Below the pieces are notes generated by a model. The model worked only from the letters and a program-made list of their open reading frames with translations, searched no databases and was not told the origin of the DNA. Positions 3,741 through 19,224 of a stretch of 25,514 bases of DNA are shown here, one piece after another. The DNA is from a virus, in the IMG/VR virus record IMGVR_UViG_3300037116_000145, positions 1 to 25,514 of that record. One strand, given 5' to 3'. Position 1 is the first letter of the stretch. Each line of letters begins with the position of its first letter. A program made the translations under genes and the position numbers.

Positions 3741-4958
3741 TTAATCGAAAACGTACAGCGTCGGGATCGCGGTGACGAATTTTCCCATGTACTTCATATC
3801 GCGCAGCTTCTTCGCGATAGGGGCTCTCAAGTTCCACGGGAAAATAAGGATTGCCCCCGGGTTGACGTCGATCAGTGCGTGCACTGGCAAAATCGGTATC
3901 TGCACGCCGGGGATGAACTTGTTGATTTTCGCCGGGCTGTCCTCCACCGTGAATGGCAGTAGCTCCGGGCCGACCCCGCAGTAATTCAGCAACGTGGTCG
4001 CCTTGGCCGGGGCACCGAACCCAAACACCAATCCATCGTTCTCGATCAAGAACTCAAGGAGGGCCAGCTTAATCTGGACCGCCTCTTTCGCGAAGCCGGT
4101 ATATGTCTCCAGCTTTTTAATACCTGCGGCTTCCTCAACAGCCAACGTAGCAACAAGCCGCATGGTGGGCGCATGGTGATATTCCGCGTGACCAACAAAC
4201 AAACGCAGAGAACCGCCGTGTGTTGGTAGATGCTCAACGTCGTACATCATCAGACCGTGGGCCTCAAAAATAGGCAAGAGAGCCGCCAGCGACAAGTACG
4301 AAAAATGCTCGTGGTAGATGGTGTCGATCTGGGAGTATTTGATCAGGTTGGTGAGGTGCGGGAACTCGAATGTGATTGTGCCGCGGGTCGCCAGAAGCAC
4401 CTTGAAGCCCTCAACGAAGTCGTGGATATCCGGAACGTGTGCCAGCACATTGCAAGCGTGGATCAGGTCCGCGCGGCCGGCGCCGTACTTGACGATCCGG
4501 TGCGCGGTATCGGCGCCAAAAAACTTGACCAAAGTTGGTACGCCCTTCGCTAAGGCTTCCACCGCAACATTGGCCGCAGGCTCGATCCCCTGAACCTTTG
4601 TACGGCCAACGAAATGTTGCAGGAGATAGCCGTCGTTGCTTGCCACCTCGACCACAAGCGAATTGCGATCCAGCTTGAACCGATCAATCATTTCGTCGGC
4701 GTAGGTCCTCGCGTGCTCCACCCAGGTCGGGCTCACCGAAGAGAAGTAGGCGTACTCAGTAAAGATCGTCCCCGGCGACACGAACTCTGGTAACTGCACC
4801 AGCCAACATTGATCGCACACGTACACTTTCAACGGGAAGGTGGTCTCCCCTTGCGATAGCTCGGCTTCTGTCTTGAACGAGTTGCTGAGGGGAGATCGGC
4901 CGAGATCGGCGAAGACGTGGGTAAGCGGGGCGTAGCAGCCGCGGCATGTGTGGGTCAT
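3741..4958 (-). CDS. NDP-sugar C-methyltransferase (TylC3/NovU type)
   Basis: A 405-residue SAM-dependent enzyme of the family that adds a methyl group to carbon 3 or 5 of an NDP-keto-deoxysugar. An N-terminal zinc site uses Cys5, Cys8, Cys48 and Cys51. The SAM-binding motif I is VVEVASNDGYLLQHF (about 102-116), followed by IEPAAN. YHEHFSYL (about 215-222) matches the catalytic Tyr/His region of TylC3-type enzymes, and the C-terminal C-methyltransferase domain includes FGFGAPAKATTLLNY. Length matches the family (about 400). The ATG at 4958 is chosen because it overlaps the preceding stop as ATGA and starts right before the first Cys pair. A 4,6-dehydratase that could make its keto-sugar substrate is encoded at 6985-8013. 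Assignment to the family is firm; the sugar is unknown. Confidence 0.88.
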   Translation of the reverse strand: MTHTCRGCYAPLTHVFADLGRSPLSNSFKTEAELSQGETTFPLKVYVCDQCWLVQLPEFVSPGTIFTEYAYFSSVSPTWVEHARTYADEMIDRFKLDRNSLVVEVASNDGYLLQHFVGRTKVQGIEPAANVAVEALAKGVPTLVKFFGADTAHRIVKYGAGRADLIHACNVLAHVPDIHDFVEGFKVLLATRGTITFEFPHLTNLIKYSQIDTIYHEHFSYLSLAALLPIFEAHGLMMYDVEHLPTHGGSLRLFVGHAEYHHAPTMRLVATLAVEEAAGIKKLETYTGFAKEAVQIKLALLEFLIENDGLVFGFGAPAKATTLLNYCGVGPELLPFTVEDSPAKINKFIPGVQIPILPVHALIDVNPGAILIFPWNLRAPIAKKLRDMKYMGKFVTAIPTLYVFD

Positions 4959-5656
4959 TGGGCATCCCAACATATGAGTAGGGGAAACTCCTGCACGCGA
5001 AGTCCGGCGCTGTCAAGCCACAGCGACCAGATACGCTCCGACAAGAACGCCATGGCCCGCTGGGGGTACTCTGGCGTCACGGCGTCCTTCGACAACACGA
5101 TTGGCTCAAGTTCTTTGCGCACCTTATCCCAGAACCGCATCCAACGAAGAAACACATAGTCACGGCAGACGAAGTGCATGGGACGGATATACGGCGTGTC
5201 GAAGTTGAAATCGCCGTGGTTCTCCATAACGCTTTGAAGCGCATTCCAATCTTCTTCTGACCGCGATATGCAATAGTCCGTTGCCATACCGTGGTTATAC
5301 GAGCAGTTGAACGGCGCCACGGTGAGGACGTCGGCGGTGGAGAGCAGCTTGGTGAAGAAGGGACTACGTTGCTCGGCAAGCCAGCACTGATACGCTTGAA
5401 AGTCTACAAGTGAAACCTGATGCCACCCGGGCGGTCGGGCCTCGTGAAAGTCGATATGCTTGCGGTAGCCGTGGAAACCGATGATAGGCGGCACAGGCAG
5501 CTTAAAAGCCGTGTACGGCGCGCCCATGTCGCAGTAGCTTTTTGGTAGCGGATCAATGTCATCGCGTCCGATGACAAACTCTTGCGTTAAGCCGCCGTAC
5601 ACGCCGGTTGGCTTGTGATCCTTGACGTGGTTAATGCTCCACAAATCCATCTGCAT
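4955..5656 (-). CDS. DUF4422-type glycosyltransferase-like protein
   Basis: A 233-residue protein. The start at 5656 (MQMDLW) follows AAGGA and lies one base after the previous stop; the longer frame upstream only overlaps the neighbour. The segment PPIIGFHGYRKHIDF matches the HYRRYF-type core of DUF4422 proteins, and the C-terminal RAMAFLSERIWSLWL followed by VQEFPLL matches the conserved end of that family (FLAERL...VKELPV). DUF4422 proteins occur in capsule and exopolysaccharide clusters and are thought to be glycosyltransferases. The stop overlaps the methyltransferase start by 4 bases. Acceptor and donor are unknown. Confidence 0.7.
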   Translation of the reverse strand: MQMDLWSINHVKDHKPTGVYGGLTQEFVIGRDDIDPLPKSYCDMGAPYTAFKLPVPPIIGFHGYRKHIDFHEARPPGWHQVSLVDFQAYQCWLAEQRSPFFTKLLSTADVLTVAPFNCSYNHGMATDYCISRSEEDWNALQSVMENHGDFNFDTPYIRPMHFVCRDYVFLRWMRFWDKVRKELEPIVLSKDAVTPEYPQRAMAFLSERIWSLWLDSAGLRVQEFPLLICWDAQ

Positions 5657-5657
5657 T

Positions 5658-6332
5658 TCACAGGTCCTTAAAGTCGCGAGCGCCGCGGTCGTGAACGAGG
5701 ACATTTTCCAGGTTGCCGCGGTACGTCGTGTGGCCCCACTCGTGGGGCGAAAGAACACGATCCTTCTCAACGACAAGAACAGCTTTTCCAGAGGCCAAAA
5801 CTTGGCTCGTGAGGTTGGTGGGGCCGTGCTCGAAATCGAGGTAGCCCAGCTTGGACGTCTTGAAATCGAACTGCCCCACCACGCTCTGGTAAAACTCGCG
5901 ATCAATAAGGATAGCCGTATCCCGAATGTGCAGCGTGGCCTCTTTAGAACCAGTGCAGCCGACCAACCCTATATTCGGCGAATTGGTGAAGGCCGCGTAC
6001 AACTTCGCGAGCCAATCATCGTGCATGATCTCAGTGGTCGAGACGAGCGTGCAAAGCAGCGGCTCTTTAACATGGTTGCAGGCTTCCTGAAAGCAGCCGC
6101 CACCGTAGGAATTGAACTCTATGTAGTCCAAAATCTCAACAGGGTTCAGCCTGGAAAACAATTTTCTGGCCAACACCAAATTATCTTCGTTCTCGAACTC
6201 TTTGAAAATGATATAAAGTTGGTGATCAATCCCAGCGGGATGCTCCTTGTATGACAAGGCAAAACGAACGAAGCGGGTGCACCAGTTCGGGTCCGCGCCG
6301 CGGGCGATGTAGACAACACCGATATCGCTCAT
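5658..6332 (-). CDS. Putative GT-A glycosyltransferase
   Basis: A 224-residue protein with an alternating strand/helix pattern like a GT2-type GT-A fold: IGVVYIARG at the N-terminus, then HQLYIIFKEF, then a central LLCTLVSTTEIMHDDWL that stands where GT2 enzymes carry their acidic metal motif, and an LVGCTGS segment afterwards. No classical DXD is present, so metal use is uncertain. GGAG precedes the ATG, which overlaps the upstream stop by 4 bases. The context of sugar enzymes on both sides supports glycan assembly. It could also be a related non-catalytic protein. Confidence 0.6.
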   Translation of the reverse strand: MSDIGVVYIARGADPNWCTRFVRFALSYKEHPAGIDHQLYIIFKEFENEDNLVLARKLFSRLNPVEILDYIEFNSYGGGCFQEACNHVKEPLLCTLVSTTEIMHDDWLAKLYAAFTNSPNIGLVGCTGSKEATLHIRDTAILIDREFYQSVVGQFDFKTSKLGYLDFEHGPTNLTSQVLASGKAVLVVEKDRVLSPHEWGHTTYRGNLENVLVHDRGARDFKDL

Positions 6333-6988
6333 AGCGCTGTCTCCGCTGTATCGTAGGCGCCGCCCATTATAACACGCAGGTGCAACTCTCGCATGGTCTG
6401 TGGATCATAGTCGCCTGTGTTCTCAGACAGGTGCACTGTGACAGCACTTGCAGTATACGGCTGCTCGATCGATCGATATCGTTCATCGTGCACCGCAGCT
6501 AGACCTACCTCGCGACACGCAGAACCAACCCACCGGTCTTCAAAATCCGGATAGGCGTCGTACGCGCGTACGGCTGCCATCCCCTTACGTGAAAGCCAGT
6601 AGGCTGATCCGCCGCCAATGTGGTGTTCATCGTAGGTGTGAAAACCCCAGTAGTCGTCACCGGCCTTCTCGTGCGCAGCTAGATTACGCAGCAAGCGCGG
6701 CACGATGATGTAGCAGTCCGTAGGCGCATAGCAAACATGGGTGTAGCCCTTCTTAAAGGCCCAGTCGATCGCCTCTTTGGTTTTGAAGGAAGTGTTGATC
6801 AGTCCGCTGTCCGCGTCGATACGCAACTCGTCCGGCAGGATAGCCTCGAACTTTCGCGTGCGATCGAACACAAAGCGGTGCTCCAGGAAATGCCCCCATG
6901 TATAAATATATGTTCCGCGGCATGTATCGTTAGCACCGTTGTCGTGATCTGGCTGCCACGTGGATACCAGGAGGATCGGCTTGATCAT
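6329..6988 (-). CDS. Putative glycosyltransferase, GT31/fringe-like pattern
   Basis: A 219-residue protein. The ATG at 6988 overlaps the dehydratase stop (ATGA) and is preferred over a start 15 bases upstream. Features resembling beta-1,3-glycosyltransferases are KTKEAIDWAFKKGYTHVCYAPTDCYI, where PTDCY takes the place of the DXD region, and GGGSAYWLSRKGMAAV, which resembles the GGAGYVLS acceptor-side motif of GT31 enzymes. Followed by FEDRWVGSACREVGL, again like the ED.. .G motif of that family. Fold-level assignment only; substrate unknown. Confidence 0.6.
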   Translation of the reverse strand: MIKPILLVSTWQPDHDNGANDTCRGTYIYTWGHFLEHRFVFDRTRKFEAILPDELRIDADSGLINTSFKTKEAIDWAFKKGYTHVCYAPTDCYIIVPRLLRNLAAHEKAGDDYWGFHTYDEHHIGGGSAYWLSRKGMAAVRAYDAYPDFEDRWVGSACREVGLAAVHDERYRSIEQPYTASAVTVHLSENTGDYDPQTMRELHLRVIMGGAYDTAETAL

Positions 6989-8013
6989 TTGGGGTCCAAC
7001 CACTCCGGGTTACGCTCGTACCACGCAACGGTTTCTTTGAGCGAGTACTCAAACGAGTGCGGCGACGTCCAACCAAGCTGGGCCAGCTTTGAACCGTCAA
7101 GCCCGTAGTGCGCGTCGTGTCCGGGCCGGTTATTCCTACAGTCGACCCGCTCGTATAGAAGTGGCTTGCCGATCGCCTCGGCGATCATCTTGGCCATTTC
7201 CAGGTTGTCAACTTGCTTGTCACCCACTACGTTGAACCGGTCAGGCCTGTCCACCTCCCCAGGCACGTGCCGAAGAGGCTTTAGCATCTCAAAAATATAG
7301 ACCATAGCATCAGCGGCGTTGCGCGAGTGGATGTAGTACCGTGAGCCAAACCCCTTCTCGGGACCGAAGTGGTGTATCTTTACTGTCTCGCCGGCGCGCA
7401 CCATCCGCTGCACCATCGCCGGGAATTTAGCTGAACTTTGGAGTTCGCCGAAGTTGTTCATTATGTTGATCAGCGTAAGCGGCACGCCGTAGCTGCGCCA
7501 GTACGCAATGCCAACAGCCTCCTGGCACGCTTTCGACGCCGAGTACGGATTGCTCGGAACGATCGGGTCCCACTCCTTGTGGGCCGTCTTTCCATCGGTG
7601 GGGCCGTAAACCTCGTCAGTGGAAATTTGCATGAAATTTTCCAGCGTGTACGGGTATTTTCTAGCGTACTCCAGCATGTTGACCATGATCGCCGTGTTCC
7701 CAGTTATTGTCTCTCCGGGGTCCAATAGCGACACGTCGACGTCCGACACCGCTGCCAAATTGATAATATAATTAACCACGCCCATTTGGCGTTGGAGCAT
7801 TTCCGAAATCGGCGCGCGCAGATCATGCGTGAAGATTTTGAACCGGGTAAGCGTCTCCGGATGCTTCTTCGTGACGCGGTACACGCGGTCGGTGAGGCCC
7901 TTGTGCCGGAAGCTGTCCAGGCCGATAATCTCCCAGTCCGTATTGACCAAAAGGTGCCGTAGCACGTGGCAGCCGATCGAGCCGCCGATACCCGTGATAA
8001 GAACGCGTTTCAT
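6985..8013 (-). CDS. NDP-glucose 4,6-dehydratase (RmlB-like, SDR family)
   Basis: A 342-residue extended short-chain dehydrogenase. It has the NAD-binding GxxGxxG at residues 8-14 (GIGGSIG), the catalytic STDEVYG at 131-137 with the Asp-Glu pair typical of 4,6-dehydratases, and the YxxxK pair Tyr157/Lys161. NNFGE around residue 190 corresponds to the substrate-loop NNYGP of RmlB. These enzymes turn an NDP-hexose (usually dTDP-glucose) into the 4-keto-6-deoxy sugar, the branch point to rhamnose, anthrose and C-methylated sugars. The ATG at 8013 has GGGAG upstream and overlaps the preceding stop. No RmlA, RmlC or RmlD partner lies in the window, so the nucleotide sugar must come from the host or from genes elsewhere in the phage. 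Confidence 0.9.
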   Translation of the reverse strand: MKRVLITGIGGSIGCHVLRHLLVNTDWEIIGLDSFRHKGLTDRVYRVTKKHPETLTRFKIFTHDLRAPISEMLQRQMGVVNYIINLAAVSDVDVSLLDPGETITGNTAIMVNMLEYARKYPYTLENFMQISTDEVYGPTDGKTAHKEWDPIVPSNPYSASKACQEAVGIAYWRSYGVPLTLINIMNNFGELQSSAKFPAMVQRMVRAGETVKIHHFGPEKGFGSRYYIHSRNAADAMVYIFEMLKPLRHVPGEVDRPDRFNVVGDKQVDNLEMAKMIAEAIGKPLLYERVDCRNNRPGHDAHYGLDGSKLAQLGWTSPHSFEYSLKETVAWYERNPEWLDPK

Positions 8014-8690
8014 TGGTAGCTCCCAAATTGCGAGGCGTTGTGGTCTGCGGCGTACCACCTAAAGCCGGTCTTTTTAAGGAGCGGCTCAACGCGCGCCATC
8101 ATATTTACCTCAAACGGAACTTGCTTCATCACGCGAATATATATCTTAGTCATCGCCTGCATGCACTCAACGAGACAACGCATATCCTTACGCGGCACGA
8201 CCATAAGCGACCCGAGAAAGCGCCAGCTTGGATAATCATCTGAAACCGGATCAACAGTCGCCGGCCAGCACCCGGGAAACGTGAAGTCATCCCTACGGAC
8301 ACGATGCAGGAAGGCGCGGATTACTTCTGCGTTCATACCGGGCTGCGAAAATACCCCATAATCGACCCAGATAAACGTGTCAGTATCTTGGTCCTCTTCG
8401 GATGCCCTCCGCAGCCATTCAAACTTCTGGTGCTGGATACAATGAAATTCTAGGCTGTTCTTTTGCGGGTTGTCGGCTTTAGCCCATGTTAGCGGCGGCT
8501 GCATCGGAGGCAGGCTCTCGATGAACTTGGTCAACCACAGATCGCCGACGCGCTCATAGTAGACCGCAAGGGGATGATCGCCAAGTGCATCGCTCAACCG
8601 CTGGCCAAGCTTCTCGTATGCGGCCGGCGAGCGCGTGTGATCTTCTAATCTTACATAACCGGTCACAACTCTGGTCTTTAGCTTTCCCAT
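8010..8690 (-). CDS. HtrL/YibB-like putative glycosyltransferase
   Basis: A 226-residue protein starting TRVVTGYVRLEDHTR, with KNSLEFHCIQHQKFEWL in the middle and DTFIWVDYGVF near residue 110. The opening VTG segment, the HQKF-type helix and the FIWVDxG motif recall HtrL/YibB proteins, found in lipopolysaccharide and capsule loci and believed to have a GT-A-like fold. The match is by memory of motifs and is moderate. The ATG overlaps the end of the large fusion gene by 13 bases, and the stop overlaps the dehydratase start by 4 bases, which ties it to the cassette. Confidence 0.5.
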   Translation of the reverse strand: MGKLKTRVVTGYVRLEDHTRSPAAYEKLGQRLSDALGDHPLAVYYERVGDLWLTKFIESLPPMQPPLTWAKADNPQKNSLEFHCIQHQKFEWLRRASEEDQDTDTFIWVDYGVFSQPGMNAEVIRAFLHRVRRDDFTFPGCWPATVDPVSDDYPSWRFLGSLMVVPRKDMRCLVECMQAMTKIYIRVMKQVPFEVNMMARVEPLLKKTGFRWYAADHNASQFGSYQ

Positions 8691-10678
8691 AGCATTCTCT
8701 CGATCGCTTTGTGGTTTATTTTACCGATGCGCGCCGAGCTATCCTTGTGACCATACGATATCACAATATCCGACGTGGACGGGTGCCAGCACATGCCGGC
8801 AGCAAACTCGATCTCTTTGTCCTCGAACACGAACGGCTTCGTAATCTTCAAAATCTTAAATCCAGGGTCCATGGACACGAACCGGTGCGAGTAGTAGCGC
8901 ACCTGCGTACCTGGGATGAACCGCGCTTCGTGAACTAGGCAAAGACGTTTACCCTGGAAGCAAATTACCTGCGAGCCACCGCTGAGGTTGCCAACGTCGT
9001 ATGGCACGTCAACCTTTGCGATGGTTTGTCCCGAGTGATCGACCACTTCACCAAGGCGATACAAAAACCGCAGTGGCCCGTTGTGGTCAGCATAAGGTTC
9101 AATTGGCATCCAGTTTTTCTCGTAAAGCCGCAGCGTGCGCACCATGCGTTTAACGTCGGTCAGATACCGCGGATTGTCGCTGTCGCCGCGCTCGATGCGC
9201 GCTATAACTTGCTCGCACATGCCCTCGACGTTCATTTCCCGTACGCACGCCGATATACAGAGATCGCCGCGGAACGAGAACAGCCGCATGTCCTCAAAGC
9301 CTATAACCGCGCCAAACAGTGGCGCGGGCGAATTACCGGGCGGTAACACTTCCACCGGCGCGCCCACGATATCAAGATCATCGTTCAAACGAGCGAGGAA
9401 GTTTCGCGTTCGTATCGGGTTCTCGGCATTCAATTCACCCATGGGCTTGTCACTGATGAAGTACCTGCCCATAAGGTCCATCTTATAATTCACACAGCGG
9501 ATGATAGCATACAGCTTATCGTCATGCTGCGTCACCGACGGGTTCATCGCCGTGTAACCCTCGGACGCCTGAAAGTTGATCAGCTTGGTCTCGAACGCCG
9601 GCAGCTTGTCCATGTAGTGATAGATATTCGTGCGAGCCAGATCGCGTGATGCCCCATAAGGACCCGCTTTGAGTGTCAATTCGTTGCAAACCTTGAAACC
9701 GTTCTCGCGCTCAGCAGGATCATAGAACGCGCATATAGCGTACTCGTCCTTTAGGCCGCACTGCTGCATATAGTCATTGACGAACAGGCTATCCTTGGAT
9801 GGAGGAATATCCATGCCCGGTTTGGAGTACAGCAGCGACGTGTGATTTTCGCCCTTCTCGCGGAAGTGCTTAGCCAGATCGAACAGCGTCTCTGGGCGCG
9901 ACGGCCGCAAGTTATACGCAATCTGCATGTTGCGTATAAAGCCCGCTTCGTTCTTCAATTCTAAGAGGCACTGGGCGTAGTTTTGCTGGGCGCTCCAGAC
10001 TTCTTCGTCCCAGCCTCCCGCTTCGACGCGCCTCTTGTACCACGTGGCCGCATCGTTCGGCCGTCCCGCGTCACGAAAGGACTGGGCGAGGTAGTACATG
10101 TATCGCGCGTTGGCCGGTTCTTTACGGAGCCCTTCTTTGAGCAGCTTGATATCTCGTTTGAACTTGTTGGGGCGGTTGGCGCCGTCAGCGTGGTCGAGGA
10201 AGCCCGCTTTCGTAGGTGGGACTGTATCCACCATAGCGCTGTCATAATACTCGTGCGTACAGCCACGATAGACCCCTTTATCTTGCACAGAAACAAGTCT
10301 AGTATTATTGTAAACTACTGCTCCAGCGCGTTGATACATACCATAGACTGGTGCAGTTAAGTTACTGGCCCAAGTCTTGTCTAAAGCGCCCAACTCCATG
10401 TCGGCGTCGACAAGCAGAATATAGTCAAAGCCACCCATCGCTCTTGCATCAGCTAGAGCAAAGTTACGCGCCTGTGACCAGTCTATGAACTCACAATGCG
10501 AAATGCGCCCCGGAACGCCCGCATCGGCAAAAAACTTTTCTATCTTAGTAACCGTGTAGTCTGTGCTGCCTGTATCTGTTATAGCCCAGCAACTAATATA
10601 TGGAAGCACAGATTTAAGCATGCGCTCGATGCGCGCGCTTTCATCTTTGACAATGGAATTTAGGCAGAGACGAGACAT
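8678..10678 (-). CDS. GT2 glycosyltransferase fused to TPR and GH130-like propeller
   Basis: A 666-residue multidomain protein. Residues 1-165 form a GT2 domain: NSIVKDE near the start, DTGSTD at 35-40, DWSQARNFA at 66-74 and the metal-binding DADME at 91-95. Residues about 175-280 are helical repeats of TPR type (LLKEGLRKEPANARYMYYLAQ). Residues about 370-660 are strand-rich and contain GFEDMRLF at 460-467, the GxEDPR-type motif of five-bladed propeller glycosidases and phosphorylases (GH130 group), and a C-terminal IEFAAGMCWHP that resembles the closing blade of the same group. GT2-TPR proteins include enzymes that glycosylate peptides. AGGAA precedes the ATG. It is the first gene of the coupled sugar cassette. 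Whether the propeller is catalytic or only binds glycan is open. Confidence 0.8.
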   Translation of the reverse strand: MSRLCLNSIVKDESARIERMLKSVLPYISCWAITDTGSTDYTVTKIEKFFADAGVPGRISHCEFIDWSQARNFALADARAMGGFDYILLVDADMELGALDKTWASNLTAPVYGMYQRAGAVVYNNTRLVSVQDKGVYRGCTHEYYDSAMVDTVPPTKAGFLDHADGANRPNKFKRDIKLLKEGLRKEPANARYMYYLAQSFRDAGRPNDAATWYKRRVEAGGWDEEVWSAQQNYAQCLLELKNEAGFIRNMQIAYNLRPSRPETLFDLAKHFREKGENHTSLLYSKPGMDIPPSKDSLFVNDYMQQCGLKDEYAICAFYDPAERENGFKVCNELTLKAGPYGASRDLARTNIYHYMDKLPAFETKLINFQASEGYTAMNPSVTQHDDKLYAIIRCVNYKMDLMGRYFISDKPMGELNAENPIRTRNFLARLNDDLDIVGAPVEVLPPGNSPAPLFGAVIGFEDMRLFSFRGDLCISACVREMNVEGMCEQVIARIERGDSDNPRYLTDVKRMVRTLRLYEKNWMPIEPYADHNGPLRFLYRLGEVVDHSGQTIAKVDVPYDVGNLSGGSQVICFQGKRLCLVHEARFIPGTQVRYYSHRFVSMDPGFKILKITKPFVFEDKEIEFAAGMCWHPSTSDIVISYGHKDSSARIGKINHKAIERMLWES

Positions 10679-10732: not shown

Positions 10733-11341
10733 TTATCCGCCGCCGACTACACCGGGCGAGATCAAGATCGCCGGACCCGTGAACCCAAGAGCCGGCGACC
10801 ACCAAACTGCGCCAGGAATTTGCGGATCGACAGTCGGCATCTGAAAAGTCGTGTTCACGACTGCGCCAGGATTACCTTGAGCACCAACGACACCAGCAAC
10901 GCCAGTGGGGCCAGCAACACCGGTGTTACCATGGAAGCCGGTCGGACCAGTCGGGCCGCCTACGCCAGTCGGACCAGTGATACCGGTCACGCCTGTCGGG
11001 CCGGTCGGGCCCGTCCAAGTCGACGGACCAGCAATGCCAGTGCCACCGGCAGAGCCGGTTATGCCTGACGGACCAGTGGGGCCAGTCGGGCCAACGGCAC
11101 CAAGATTACCAACTGGACCAGTCGGGCCAGTATTTCCCGGAGGGCCGCCTGCGGGACCAACAGGACCCACGCCAGTCGCACCCGTCGCGCCAGTATTGCC
11201 CGTAGCACCTGCGGGGCCAACGGCGCCCGCGGGACCCGTGATACCGCTGTTGATCGCGTGCGCAGCCTGCTGGAGGATGCTCGGGATCAAACCGTCATCA
11301 TACGTGTCCGGTGCTGTGGTCGGGTCTGGAGTGATTGCCAT
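10733..11341 (-). CDS. Collagen-like fibre protein 3
   Basis: A 202-residue protein. The start at 11341 (MAITPD) follows GGGGACC and lies one base after the preceding stop. After an N-terminal helix ([11 protein letters not shown]), residues about 34-155 are Gly-X-Y triplets, many of them GPT or GAT, which form a collagen triple helix in phage and bacterial fibres. A non-collagen C-terminal cap follows, with [19 protein letters not shown]. The cap and the N-terminal helix resemble those of the two proteins encoded just upstream, so these are paralogues. Likely a virion surface fibre or fibrous tail part; the Thr-rich Y positions are candidate glycosylation sites given the neighbouring sugar genes (inference). 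Confidence 0.85.
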
Positions 11342-11342
11342 C

Positions 11343-11948
11343 TTAGGTCCCCGGTCCATGCGATACGGTCAGAATGCCGCCATTGCTCCAAAGCTGGCCA
11401 GTAACGCCAGGGCTGGTTGTCTGTGGCGTGAAGACACTAACATTCACGCCCGTGTTGCCGGCAATGCCGGTCGCCCCTACGGCGCCAGTCGGGCCAGTTG
11501 CACCGGCGAAACCTGCCGATCCAGTCGGCCCAGTAAAGCCCGCGGGACCTGAGAAGCCTTTTGCGCCCTGAGAGGGGCCTTGCGGACCCGCCGCGCCTGT
11601 GGCGCCAGACACGCCGCCAGTAGGCGGGGGCGGTCCAACCTGTCCAGTTGGGCCGGCAGTGCCAGTCTGGCCGGGCGCTCCCTGTAAGCCGAGACCACCG
11701 GTAGCGCCTTGAGCACCAGAGGGGCCTGTGGGCCCCAGAGGACCAAGTACACCACCAGCTTGGCCAGTAGGGCCAGTGATACCTGTCGGGCCAGTCGGAC
11801 CTTTCGATCCACCGGCCGCACCCGTAGGACCAGCAGGGCCAGTCGAGCCACCTACAGTGCCGCTGTTAAGCGCGTCGACCAGGAACTTGAGGTAGCGCCC
11901 CCAAAAGTTAATGTCGGCATTGTGAACTTCTGGGACATTATAGGCCAT
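11343..11948 (-). CDS. Collagen-like fibre protein 2
   Basis: A 201-residue protein with an N-terminal segment [16 protein letters not shown], then about 125 residues of Gly-X-Y triplets (GPTGPTG is frequent), and a C-terminal cap [20 protein letters not shown]. The cap is nearly the same as that of the preceding protein, which shows a gene duplication. GGGGACG precedes the ATG, and the upstream stop is two bases away. Likely trimeric fibre; location in the virion is inferred from the phage context. Confidence 0.85.
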
Positions 11949-11950
11949 GA

Positions 11951-12607
11951 TTACGTCCCCGGTCCCTGTGAAATCGTCAGAACGCCGTTCTTATTCCAGA
12001 CCTGTCCGGTCGCGCCACCGGTTACACCAGGGCTCGACGTCGGGGGAATGAGCAGTGTGGTGTACGTGCCAGTCGGTCCTATCGGACCAGTCGCGCCCGC
12101 GAGCGCGCTCTGCGGACCAGCCAAACCCGTTACGCCTGTGGGACCAGTCGGACCCGTGTTGCCAGTGGGGCCAGTCGATCCGGCAGCACCGGTAGCCGCG
12201 CCAGTAGGGCCAGACGGACCAGTACCAGCATTGGCTAGACCTTGCGGACCCGCGGCGCCGGCAGGTCCTTGGTTGCCGGTAATGCCAGTCGCACCTGTGT
12301 TACCAGTCGCACCTTTGGTGCCGACGTATCCTTGGTTGCCCTGCGCTCCAGTCCCATACCCGAAGGGGCCTGTGTTTCCTGTGGGGCCGGGACCAGCGGG
12401 GCCAGTCGGACCCGTGCTAACCGAACCAGTGTTGCCCACCGGGCCTGTCAAGCCGCCAACCAGCGCACCGGTGGGGCCTGTCCCCCCTATAAGAACGCCG
12501 GCATCGATCGAGGAAACGACGTTAGCCAAAACAGGACCGATCGCGTTACGGTCATAGTCGCCATTGGGAGCGGACAAGAGGCCAGTTGCGCCGGTGAAGC
12601 CAGCCAT
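11951..12607 (-). CDS. Collagen-like fibre protein 1
   Basis: A 218-residue protein. The N-terminal segment [14 protein letters not shown] is followed by collagen-like triplets from about residue 40 to 175, rich in GPT and GNT, and by the cap [19 protein letters not shown] that ends [13 protein letters not shown] lies upstream of the ATG. It is the first of three tandem collagen-like genes and follows the sulfotransferase gene by 30 bases. Confidence 0.85.
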
Positions 12608-12637: not shown

Positions 12638-13435
12638 CTACGGCGCAGGAGTTACCGGTTTATTAAGCCAGAATGGTTTTGGCAGTGAGTTGAAAATGTC
12701 GGGCGGCAAAACCGTGTCCCGCGGCTCATACACAACTTTTTTCTTAAGGTTATGTAAGCCGGGCGTCGACAGGTCCTTATCAAAGGTTGCTGCACCAGGG
12801 ATCGGTTCGATATTGTCAAAGTCGTAGGCAAACGGCTCAAGTTCCAAAGCCAAATGGAGATCGCGCATTATATCGACCGGGAACCGTGCAAGATCGTCAT
12901 ATGTGATCAAGAGCAGGCGGTTCTTGTGCGGACCATAGAATGCTTCGCGTAGCGAGTTGTACGCGAAGCCAAACACAGCATCAGGCTTCATATACATCCT
13001 GACACGATCATAAATGTTAAGGTTGGTCTGGCCATTAAGTATCGCGCCAGTGCCCAAAGGGTCCTTCTCGCGCAAGTACTCTAGACTGTCGATGATCGCG
13101 GCCGGTGCGCGAACGCAGCATATAACTTTACACTCAGGAAATAGCTCCATGAGCAGTGGCATATTAGCGGTCCACCGGCGATTGTTGTCAAACACGACCC
13201 GCGGCGCGCCTTTATAATAGGCGTGAAAAACAGCGCGCAGCATGTCGGCGCGCTGTTCGGGCGTAATGAAACTGGCCCCCTCATTGTCATGGCCGATCGC
13301 TTGCTGGAGCGTAGTAATAGCATAGCCTACCGGCGTCTGAATGCTAGCAATGAACTCAGGGTTCTGACACAAGATCGACGCTAGCAGTGTAGACCCACTG
13401 CGCGGCAGGCCGCTTATAAAGTGCACTTCTTCCAT
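12638..13435 (-). CDS. PAPS-dependent sulfotransferase
   Basis: A 265-residue enzyme of the sulfotransferase superfamily, which moves sulfate from PAPS to a hydroxyl group, often on a sugar or tyrosine. The 5'-phosphosulfate loop is FISGLPRSGSTLL (residues 6-18), and the 3'-phosphate-binding strand and helix are VICCVRAPAAIIDS (104-117), with Arg109 and Ser117 in the expected places. Length and motifs suit the Sulfotransfer_3 type. AGGA precedes the ATG 3 bases after the previous stop. It sits between the beta-rich fibre gene and the collagen-like genes, so a fibre glycan or fibre residue is the likely target (inference). No sulfate-activation genes are in the window; PAPS must come from the host. 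Confidence 0.85.
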   Translation of the reverse strand: MEEVHFISGLPRSGSTLLASILCQNPEFIASIQTPVGYAITTLQQAIGHDNEGASFITPEQRADMLRAVFHAYYKGAPRVVFDNNRRWTANMPLLMELFPECKVICCVRAPAAIIDSLEYLREKDPLGTGAILNGQTNLNIYDRVRMYMKPDAVFGFAYNSLREAFYGPHKNRLLLITYDDLARFPVDIMRDLHLALELEPFAYDFDNIEPIPGAATFDKDLSTPGLHNLKKKVVYEPRDTVLPPDIFNSLPKPFWLNKPVTPAP

Positions 13436-13438
13436 GGG

Positions 13439-14746
13439 TTATCCTGTTAGGTACCACGTACTTGCTGAGACATTGTACGTTAGCGCAAATACAGTGCCGG
13501 CAGGAAATGTAGAGGGCGCCCCTATGACTGTACCGCCAGAAAAAGTTAATCCGGCAATGTTATAGCTGCTGACATTTGAGAACGCAATACGGGGTCCTTG
13601 TATGGTGTAGTTGGAGAAGGACGGGGCAAGCGTAAGAATGGACATTGACGGCAACGCCACAGTGAGGGACGTTAGCGCACTGGATGGATTAAGAACGACG
13701 ATGGAGTTTTGTGGCGCTACCGTTACAGTGCCGCCACTCGTTGGTACTTCAATAAGATCAGTGACCATATTGAAGCAAGAGGTAAGATCGCATAGCCCAC
13801 CGCCGCCGCCCGGCAAGCTGCTTAGAGCGACGGCCTGTAGGTCGATTACACTGCCCTTAACAGCTAACGCTCCTAAAGTCGCCGTCGCCGCTCCCGAGAA
13901 GCTGACGCCGGCTGACCCCAAGTAAATCTGTCCTATGTCTTCTGCGAACAGAAACGCGCCGGCGAACGAAGGCGCCCCAGACATTGTAACGCCGCCGTAA
14001 ATCTGACCAAACGAACCTTGTGTAGCCGCTATCCCCCAAAGAAATGTTCCGGTAAATGTTGCTTCAAACACATTTACGGTAGCGCCAGCGTTGCCAATTC
14101 CAACGGCACAGAAAGTAGGGCCGCCAGATGACGTGTTGCCTGTGAACAGAACGTCGCCAACCCATGTTCCAATGTTTATGACGCCGGCTGGGCAGAATGT
14201 TTCCAGGCACACGCCTACACCGTTATCAACTAGATTGATGCTGTCGATAAAGAGAGGCGCCCCCATCGCAAACGGAACCTGCGTGTTTCCGTCAGGTGTT
14301 CCATAGCAGAAATTGTAGCCTGTAGTAGTGCCAGAGCCTGAGCCGTATAGATAAACTCCGGAACCTCCAATCCATCCGTTAACTGCGAACAGGCTGTAAG
14401 GGCCAGCCCCAACACAGGTTATCTGGAGGCTGGATTGACCAAGATCGAGAGCGCCGGATAGATAGTTCCACGCGTACTGAAGGGTATTGAACGGACCGGC
14501 GCCAGGAGCGTCAACTCCTAAAACAGCATCAACGGTATAAGACGCGTTAGTGGTGAGCAGCGCGCGCCCAACAAAGGCCGAACCACTGCCCGTGGGGCCT
14601 GTCCCGCCCGCGCCCGTTCCACCACCGCCGCTAGCCGCGCCAGTTGGGCCGGTAGGGCCGGGTCCGCCCGCAACCGCACCAGCCTGAATGGCGTCCCAGC
14701 ACTGCTCAACAGCGCCACCAGGATAATACTGGTTAAGGCCAGCCAT
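13439..14746 (-). CDS. Beta-rich fibre/spike protein with a collagen-like neck
   Basis: A 435-residue protein. The N-terminal segment VEQCWDAIQAG resembles the N-terminal helices of the three collagen-like proteins and is followed by a short collagen-like neck (GPGPTGPTG to about residue 55). The rest is Gly/Ser/Thr-rich and strand-rich with repeated turns, consistent with a right-handed beta-helix or similar stacked fold, and ends in SASTWYLTG, a style common at the ends of phage fibres. No enzymatic motif is evident. It lies two bases after the preceding small gene. Likely a tail fibre or head decoration fibre that binds the host; specificity cannot be read from sequence. Confidence 0.7.
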   Translation of the reverse strand: MAGLNQYYPGGAVEQCWDAIQAGAVAGGPGPTGPTGAASGGGGTGAGGTGPTGSGSAFVGRALLTTNASYTVDAVLGVDAPGAGPFNTLQYAWNYLSGALDLGQSSLQITCVGAGPYSLFAVNGWIGGSGVYLYGSGSGTTTGYNFCYGTPDGNTQVPFAMGAPLFIDSINLVDNGVGVCLETFCPAGVINIGTWVGDVLFTGNTSSGGPTFCAVGIGNAGATVNVFEATFTGTFLWGIAATQGSFGQIYGGVTMSGAPSFAGAFLFAEDIGQIYLGSAGVSFSGAATATLGALAVKGSVIDLQAVALSSLPGGGGGLCDLTSCFNMVTDLIEVPTSGGTVTVAPQNSIVVLNPSSALTSLTVALPSMSILTLAPSFSNYTIQGPRIAFSNVSSYNIAGLTFSGGTVIGAPSTFPAGTVFALTYNVSASTWYLTG

Positions 14747-17977: not shown

Positions 17978-18200
17978 AGCCGCCAAAGCGCGCTATCTCC
18001 ATACGCCAAAGAAACGCCTCACCGATTTACGCTATCGTCACTCGCCGCTTGGCAAGGAATGCTCGTTTCGGTATAACTCGTCCATCCCGAATATCAACAG
18101 ACGTTGGAGATTTGAAAATGCCGGTCGCTCAAAAATCAGACAAAGACAGGCTGCACGACGCCGCGGAAATAGTCCGCAAACTCCAACTCCAGATCACTGA
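17937..18200 (+). pseudogene. Cryptic frame with 13-residue tandem repeats (nuclease-like remnant)
   Basis: In the frame offset from the putative small terminase, bases 17952-18107 code for four consecutive 13-residue units: KYNHSAKGKAAKA, RYLHTPKKRLTDL, RYRHSPLGKECSF and RYNSSIPNINRRW. The pattern [RK]Y-x-x-[ST]-x-x-G/K is like the basic repeats that precede HNH or endonuclease VII domains in many phage nucleases, but no nuclease domain follows; the frame ends at 18200 inside the metallophosphoesterase gene. There is no ATG; TTG codons at 17937 and 17946 are possible starts and GAGGG lies beside them. It may be the relic of an inserted nuclease gene or a tiny overlapping gene. Confidence 0.45.
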
Positions 18201-19224
18201 TAACCGACGCACGATCACGCAGCTCCGGCGCGACAACGACACCGCAGAAAAGATACGCAAGGAGATTTTCGAGTTAGCCGAGCACACGCCAGAACCGCCA
18301 GCATGGCTCACCGGGCGCGGGATCAAGAACGGCGAGCGCGGCGGCCCGGTGCTGATGGTAAGTGACATTCATTATGGCGAAGTAATCGACCCAGATGAAG
18401 TCGGCGGTGTGAACCAGTACAACCACAAGATAGCCGCCAAGCGGCTGAAAACACTAACTGAGGTCACGATAGACCTGTGTTCCAATCACATGGGCCGGGC
18501 AAACGTAGCGTACCCGGGTTTGGTTATGTGCCTCGGAGGGGACCTGATTGGCGGCGACATACACGAAGAACTAAGCTGGACCAACGATCGCACTTCGCAC
18601 CAAAGCGTTAATGACCTGACCGATCTTCTATCTGGCATGATTGAGGCGTTCGCTACCAAGTTCGGTCGCGTATTTATCCCGGCAGTCGTGGGCAACCACG
18701 GCAGAAGCACGCTCAAGGGGCACTACAAGCAGCGCGCCTATACCAACTACGACTGGACGATAGCGTGCAACCTTGAACGGGTTTTTCGTAAAGACAAGAA
18801 TATCCAGTTCCAAATCCCTAGCGGCGCGGACGCGCGTTTCAACGTATTCGGGACAAGGTTCCTCCTGACCCATGGCGACACGCTTGGGGTCCGCGGCGGC
18901 GATGGCATCATAGGACTGCTGGGGCCGCTCGCGCGCGGTCGCCTTAAAGTGGGGCAATCAGAAGCCGCCATTGGGCGCGACTTTGATATGCTTCTGTGTG
19001 GCCACTACCACCAACTTACGTGGCTCCCGAACTTGATTTGTAATGGGTGCGTCAAAGGATACGATGAGTACGCCCGGTTAGCGCTGCGCGCACCGTACAG
19101 CCCGCCCGCACAGGCTCTATTTTTCACGCACCCAGAACACGGCGTAACCGCCCGTTGGCCAGCGTTCCTTGAGCCTAAGAAAGTGATCGCCCAGGAAAAC
19201 GTGTGGACTTCATGGCAGACCTAA
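18118..19224 (+). CDS. Calcineurin-like metallophosphoesterase
   Basis: A 368-residue protein with all five metal-site blocks of the metallophosphoesterase fold in order: SDIHYGE (Asp83, His85), LGGDLIGGD (about 139-147), GNHGR (192-196), THGD (251-254) and GHYH (295-298). An extra N-terminal coiled coil of about 50 residues (DKDRLHDAAEIVRK onward) precedes the domain. The family hydrolyses phosphodiesters or phosphomonoesters, including nucleic acid ends. The ATG at 18118 follows TTGGAG and is chosen over an upstream in-frame start that lies in the cryptic repeat region. Its position between the two terminase genes suggests a role in packaging or in DNA processing, which is inference. Confidence 0.85.
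   Translation: MPVAQKSDKDRLHDAAEIVRKLQLQITDNRRTITQLRRDNDTAEKIRKEIFELAEHTPEPPAWLTGRGIKNGERGGPVLMVSDIHYGEVIDPDEVGGVNQYNHKIAAKRLKTLTEVTIDLCSNHMGRANVAYPGLVMCLGGDLIGGDIHEELSWTNDRTSHQSVNDLTDLLSGMIEAFATKFGRVFIPAVVGNHGRSTLKGHYKQRAYTNYDWTIACNLERVFRKDKNIQFQIPSGADARFNVFGTRFLLTHGDTLGVRGGDGIIGLLGPLARGRLKVGQSEAAIGRDFDMLLCGHYHQLTWLPNLICNGCVKGYDEYARLALRAPYSPPAQALFFTHPEHGVTARWPAFLEPKKVIAQENVWTSWQT

Follow-up and report, generated by a model that had tools for sequence, protein, structure and literature searches.

Which reaction, or reactions, might be carried out by a viral protein in which a family 2 glycosyltransferase (GT2), a stretch of tetratricopeptide repeats (TPR) and a propeller resembling GH130 sugar enzymes are joined in one polypeptide? 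Such a protein is encoded in the window considered here, which is the whole 25.5-kb stretch (25,514 nucleotides) of the virus record IMGVR_UViG_3300037116_000145. Our reading, to which we give a probability of roughly 0.55, is that it is a phage enzyme which has two active sites and adds sugars to collagen-like fibre proteins of the phage itself. The computational evidence concerns the identity of the domains, the conservation of their residues, the recurrence of the fusion and its linkage to collagen-like genes; the substrate, the donor, the order of the reactions and a synthetic rather than degradative direction are what we infer.

An earlier note on this DNA had described an open reading frame (ORF) with the motifs DTGSTD, DADME and GFEDMRLF, and had proposed the order GT2, TPR-like repeats and GH130-type five-bladed propeller. 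The ORF is real and contains all three motifs (DTGSTD at residues 35-40); it lies on the minus strand, which the note did not give, and the domain order is borne out by Pfam, profile comparisons, AlphaFold and Foldseek (Table 1). With the single sequence, Pfam detects PF00535 (GT2; E 2e-4) and TPR_16/TPR_14 (E ~2e-4). A profile of nine N-terminal sequences, compared with solved GT2 peptide glycosyltransferases, matches SunS over residues 3-219 (E 9e-15) as well as GmaR (E 2e-14), and the likeness to peptide glycosyltransferases drawn in the note thus holds. Both features of SunS/SgtA-type enzymes, a GT-A core with a DxD motif and C-terminal TPR-like helices, are present: residues 170-274 are helical in the full-length model, and DTGSTD and the DxD (D91 and D93) are retained in 51 of 53 non-redundant fusions. 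In Clostridioides difficile, SgtA (358 residues), a GT-A domain followed by TPR, is encoded beside bclA3 and transfers O-linked N-acetylglucosamine onto Thr in the collagen repeats of BclA3 (PMC7157674). The N-terminal half of the phage protein, likened to SgtA through this published description, likewise combines GT-A and TPR in about 350 residues and is encoded beside a collagen-like gene. Because it shares this architecture and neighbourhood, initiation on collagen-like proteins is the best reading. SgtA differs in having no propeller and a single function, while SunS (an S-glycosyltransferase) and GmaR (a flagellin transferase), both GT2 enzymes likened through the N-terminal profile match, also have no propeller and act on different acceptors.

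The propeller of the window protein is not named by single-sequence scans against Pfam, NCBIfam and PHROG, and no model of these databases covers the fused form. An AlphaFold2 model built from 52 sequences has a mean predicted local distance difference test (pLDDT) score of 89.4 and a predicted TM-score (pTM) of 0.90, and every one of its top 41 Foldseek matches in the PDB is a mannoside enzyme of GH130 or GT108 type (best E 5e-11), among them GH130 enzymes, the mannoside synthase Uhgb_MS and Leishmania GT108. An hhalign comparison of 102 phage sequences with 20 genuine GH130 proteins gives probabilities of 95-97.5% and E values from 2e-8 to 3e-11 over ~260 columns, and a chance resemblance can be dismissed. 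Identity to GH130/GT108 is ~14%. The C-terminal half, for which the note had proposed fold prediction and a fold search, is thus predicted to be a propeller and not some other fold, and on this model it belongs, as a viral branch, to the mannoside enzymes with the GH130/GT108 fold. Giant viruses in a library of predicted viral proteins have the same propeller (pithoviruses, Solivirus, Indivirus, EsV-1; TM-score 0.6-0.85), often inside longer proteins, some of which are named for sugar enzymes.

Residue conservation was counted over 110 non-redundant propellers, 53 fused and 57 non-fused. Invariant in all 110 are N379, R394, E462, D463, K521, N522, W523, G567, H583, Y596, E624, G628 and D646. 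The conserved catalytic acid of GH130, which the note had left to be checked, is therefore present: hhalign aligns GFEDMRLF with GxEDPR and places D463 in the column of the general acid (Asp104 of Uhgb_MP, Asp142 of BT3780), next to the equally unvarying E462. The alignment also backs the blades around 379, 394, 566, 583 and 646, and the placements of 521 and 541 are inferred, with EKNWM put one strand away by hhalign from its position by strand order and K521 placed from blade topology. Neither the EKNWM motif nor the invariant E624 appears in the GH130 sequences used for comparison. N379, R394 and D646 align with sugar-binding residues of BT3780, and the GH130 counterparts of several of the invariant residues bind sugars or serve as general acid (PMC4599007).

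These columns also bear on the direction of the reaction. At position 566 the phage propellers have Ser or Arg, plus Ala once and Gly once; position 541 is R or K in 46/53 fused and W in 54/57 non-fused propellers, so placed. With 541 placed by strand order, Glu is found at neither column in any of the 110, and exactly one basic residue stands at one or the other in 109/110, a pattern that suggests a pocket for a negatively charged donor or leaving group and not for the activation of water. Repeated covariation as an explanation of this 541/566 switch was rejected, as fused and non-fused propellers are the two sides of one branch and represent few events. The His at the H583 column is kept by phosphorylases and lost by GH130 hydrolase-type sequences. 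A GH130 hydrolase of the BT3780 type was likewise rejected, its pair of Glu bases being missing. The note had suggested that the protein could both build and trim or sense a glycan. Of these options a second building step by the propeller, as transferase or reversible phosphorylase, would fit best; hydrolytic trimming is unlikely because Ser or Arg takes the place of Glu at 566 and no Glu is present at 541 while the phosphorylase His is invariant, and a purely sensing propeller is unlikely because the catalytic Asp and the sugar-binding residues never vary.

We take the phosphate-binding set of GH130 phosphorylases to be R150, N151, R168, K212 and H231 of Uhgb_MP. The His of this set is kept in the phage propellers, K521-N522 and R541 match by strand order, and K212 is not kept. 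It is conceivable, if on balance unlikely, that the propeller acts as a trimming enzyme or reversible phosphorylase, which removes or exchanges the sugar added by the GT2 half or a partner, thereby recycling sugar-1-phosphate or proof-reading the glycan. Mannoside phosphorylases are among the closest folds, and the propellers still have the phosphorylase His together with a basic residue in the pocket; however, K212 is lost, the R168 equivalent occurs only in the fused branch, the missing Glu disfavours hydrolysis, and a trimming role is hard to motivate in a fusion with an initiating transferase. Moreover, GT108 enzymes, which share this fold, act both as transferases and as phosphorylases (PMC8950772).

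The fusion itself is recurrent. A scan with the N-terminal half led to 80 viral loci being fetched, of which ~68 carry GT2-TPR and propeller in one frame, and several others are cut by contig ends; one scan gave five relatives of P0001, four of them full length. An assembly artefact, which the note had named as a possible undoing of its claim, is rejected by this recurrence and by the syntenic relatives, and the fusion is genuine. In two loci (L015 and L211) the fusion ORF is broken inside the propeller into 545 residues and a separate 95-residue ORF, by a frameshift of the assembly or of the gene, and longer fusions with extra N-terminal regions occur in L258, L272 and L274, the last two with additional GT2 domains. 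With the same pattern, the propeller was found in >590 viral stretches versus 10 loci in 84,980 cellular genomes. In a tree of the 110 propellers the 53 fused ones stand on one side of a branch whose Shimodaira-Hasegawa-like approximate likelihood ratio test (SH-aLRT) value is low (54); a single origin of the fusion is allowed, not proved.

Outside the fusion, the propeller either stands alone (~325 residues), as in the cultured Synechococcus phages DSL-LC02 and S-SCSM2R, or has TPR, methyltransferase, apparent radical SAM/SPASM or GT2-GT25 domains as partners. Apparent C-terminal radical SAM/SPASM domains were recognised by eye in L017 (3367-5217), L038, L041, L057 and L070; in L009 the gene adjoining a stand-alone propeller is FkbM, radical SAM and SPASM by Pfam. 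Two propeller ORFs lie in tandem in L006 (9932-12753) with a 4-base overlap, each with a C-terminal helical tail and the first with a weak TPR signal. A contig from an Actinomycetota metagenome-assembled genome (L091, 1477-4017) has propeller, GT2 and GT25 within one ORF. The GT25 family includes collagen galactosyltransferases. Such a variety of partners, GT2-TPR and TPR tails included, is what one would see for a targeting domain, and the propeller could then be a non-catalytic module for glycan binding or docking. A module that only binds should tend to lose the general-acid Asp, whereas all 110 propellers keep it along with the mapped residues for sugar binding, and we consider this explanation improbable.

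The preferred reading, glycosylation of collagen-like fibres, draws its substrate from the surrounding genes. Collagen-like runs, defined as >=8 G-X-Y, were sought by a six-frame repeat search, since long antisense ORFs hide some collagen-like genes from greedy ORF calls. Of the fused loci 30/47, and of the non-fused loci 14/37, have such a run upstream on the same strand, as against 0/80 for NrdA control loci. A second control, a tail-pin gene and its relatives, gave 0/55 versus 15/32 non-fused propeller loci (Fisher p 2e-8, only a guide because the control loci may include redundant ones). The collagen-like substrate supposed in the note thus holds up as a predicted one. Thr occupies 48/110 Y positions of the repeats in the window and 57% of those in the fused clade.

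If these observations are combined, the TPR region would hold the acceptor polypeptide, while the GT-A domain, SgtA/SunS/GmaR-like, would start the glycan on Ser/Thr, the likely acceptor being Thr in the G-P-T triplets encoded just upstream. The propeller, in which the catalytic Asp, the sugar-binding residues and a positively charged pocket are preserved, would then most likely add, or exchange, the next sugar, beta-linked and mannose-like. As in GT108 and Uhgb_MS, to which it is likened, the donor would be an activated one (sugar phosphate or nucleotide sugar), and the dehydratase, C-methyltransferase, sulfotransferase and other putative transferases of the locus would make and decorate the glycan.

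Several points weigh against this reading. The full-length model, made from 5 sequences, is poor, with a mean pLDDT of 63 in the N-terminal half. PF04041 touches 17/52 propellers weakly (best E 4e-4), does not reach its gathering score and has no match in the window protein, and because of this weakness the propeller is best treated as a family related to but separate from GH130; a profile search of the PDB with the propeller reaches only E 0.4. Of the phosphate-binding residues, K212 is lost and R168 is present in just some of the propellers, so that donor and direction can be given only as probable. About a third of the fused loci have no collagen-like gene within 4 kb upstream, and the collagens near non-fused propellers are GXQ-rich. 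Dehydratases and C-methyltransferases like those of the cassette are found in O-antigen loci as well. Bacterial collagens in general often have Thr at Y (PMC8968730), so that its presence permits O-glycosylation without proving it. Phage glycosyltransferases are, furthermore, often interpreted as modifying the host surface (PMC7029224), so that the cassette might act on a host polysaccharide (O-antigen or capsule) with the collagen-like genes as bystanders. This is quite unlikely: those TPR-type GT2 enzymes whose function is known have polypeptides as acceptors (SgtA, PMC7157674; the SunS and GmaR matches), the fusion gene follows collagen-like genes in syntenic loci, and both fused and non-fused propellers have the upstream collagen link against 0/55 for the tail-gene control.

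Table 1. Features of the window discussed in the text (positions on the 25,514-nucleotide stretch).
Feature	Position	Strand	Evidence or remark
GT2-TPR-propeller fusion ORF, 666 aa	8678..10678	minus	intact; syntenic full-length relatives
GT2 (GT-A) domain, residues 1-165, SunS/GmaR-like	10184..10678	minus	PF00535, profile matches
DxD metal/nucleotide-sugar motif D91-A92-D93, in DADME (residues 91-95)	10400..10408	minus	
TPR-like helical region, residues ~170-305	9764..10171	minus	TPR_16/TPR_14; designed-TPR and OGT-TPR profile matches
Five-bladed GH130/GT108-type propeller, residues 355-664	8687..9616	minus	AlphaFold model, Foldseek, hhalign
GFEDMRLF, residues 460-467	9278..9301	minus	D463 aligns with GH130 catalytic Asp
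EKNWMP, residues 520-525	9104..9121	minus	K521-N522 at GH130 R150-N151 / K199 site by strand order
R541, inferred equivalent of phosphate-binding R168	9056..9058	minus	strand order
S566	8981..8983	minus	column is Glu in GH130 hydrolases, Gly in phosphorylases
H583, equivalent of phosphorylase His (YHGV)	8930..8932	minus	110/110; aligned
D646, equivalent of -1 sugar-binding Asp (YYGAAD)	8741..8743	minus	110/110; aligned
Collagen-like protein a	10733..11359	minus	directly upstream of fusion; up to 17 G-X-Y triplets per run
Collagen-like protein b	11343..11948	minus	G-X-Y repeats
Collagen-like protein c	11951..12607	minus	G-X-Y repeats
Sulfotransferase	12638..13435	minus	PF13469 6e-14; retained in L004, L005
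Putative structural protein	13439..14746	minus	GPTGPTG near N-terminus
226-aa protein	8010..8690	minus	overlaps fusion gene end; adjoins fusion in syntenic relatives
Nucleoside diphosphate-sugar 4,6-dehydratase/epimerase-like enzyme	6985..8058	minus	PF16363 3e-40, phrog_540
224-aa protein, possible glycosyltransferase (by eye)	6329..7003	minus	syntenic in L002-L004; no family match
224-aa GT2-like protein (weak)	5658..6332	minus	PF13712 0.0045; syntenic
DUF4422 protein	4955..5905	minus	PF14393 1.4e-7
Sugar C-methyltransferase-like protein	3741..4973	minus	PF08484 3e-43, PF08421 9e-22

The order collagen-like genes, fusion, 226-aa gene and dehydratase is kept in four related loci (L002-L005); the 226-aa protein has no Pfam or PHROG match. 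Rhizobium phage RHph_TM3_14A shares with the window the terminase, portal, scaffold and capsid backbone (capsid 68%, portal 57%, terminase 49%) and its order, with only small genes between portal and scaffold. About 11 kb of the window, absent from this relative, is thus a collagen-plus-glycan island. Between the terminase genes, a plus-strand gene at 18049-19224, metallophosphoesterase-like by eye, is conserved in L005.

No characterised enzyme with the order GT2-TPR-propeller was found in the open-access literature searched, which agrees with the note's statement that it knew of none, and the same literature held nothing relevant on GH130 in phages. The phage propeller resembles GT108 (Leishmania MPT/MTP) in fold, and GH130, including Uhgb_MS, in fold, in its EDxR acid motif and in the mapped sugar-site residues; it differs in that the phosphate site is only partly kept, and the GH130/GT108 entries compared show no fusion to a peptide glycosyltransferase. 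The giant-virus propellers share the fold in viruses whose hosts are eukaryotic. Mimivirus L230, a collagen lysyl hydroxylase-glucosyltransferase, shows that a single viral protein can combine two enzymes with viral collagen as their substrate (PMC9614988); it is built from other domains and has other chemistry (hydroxylysine, glucose).

Tentatively, and at somewhat less than even odds, the propeller may represent a new family of glycosyltransferases, mostly of viruses, whose members lengthen the O-glycans of collagen-like fibres, in which case the fusion would both start and extend a protein-linked glycan, and the module would be one reused by phages and giant viruses. The analysis ties a large unnamed viral propeller family to collagen-like virion proteins and provides a testable enzyme for phage fibre glycosylation, a bacterial-virus parallel to collagen glycosylation in mimivirus. 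If true, the GH130/GT108 fold would extend to the synthesis of protein glycans.
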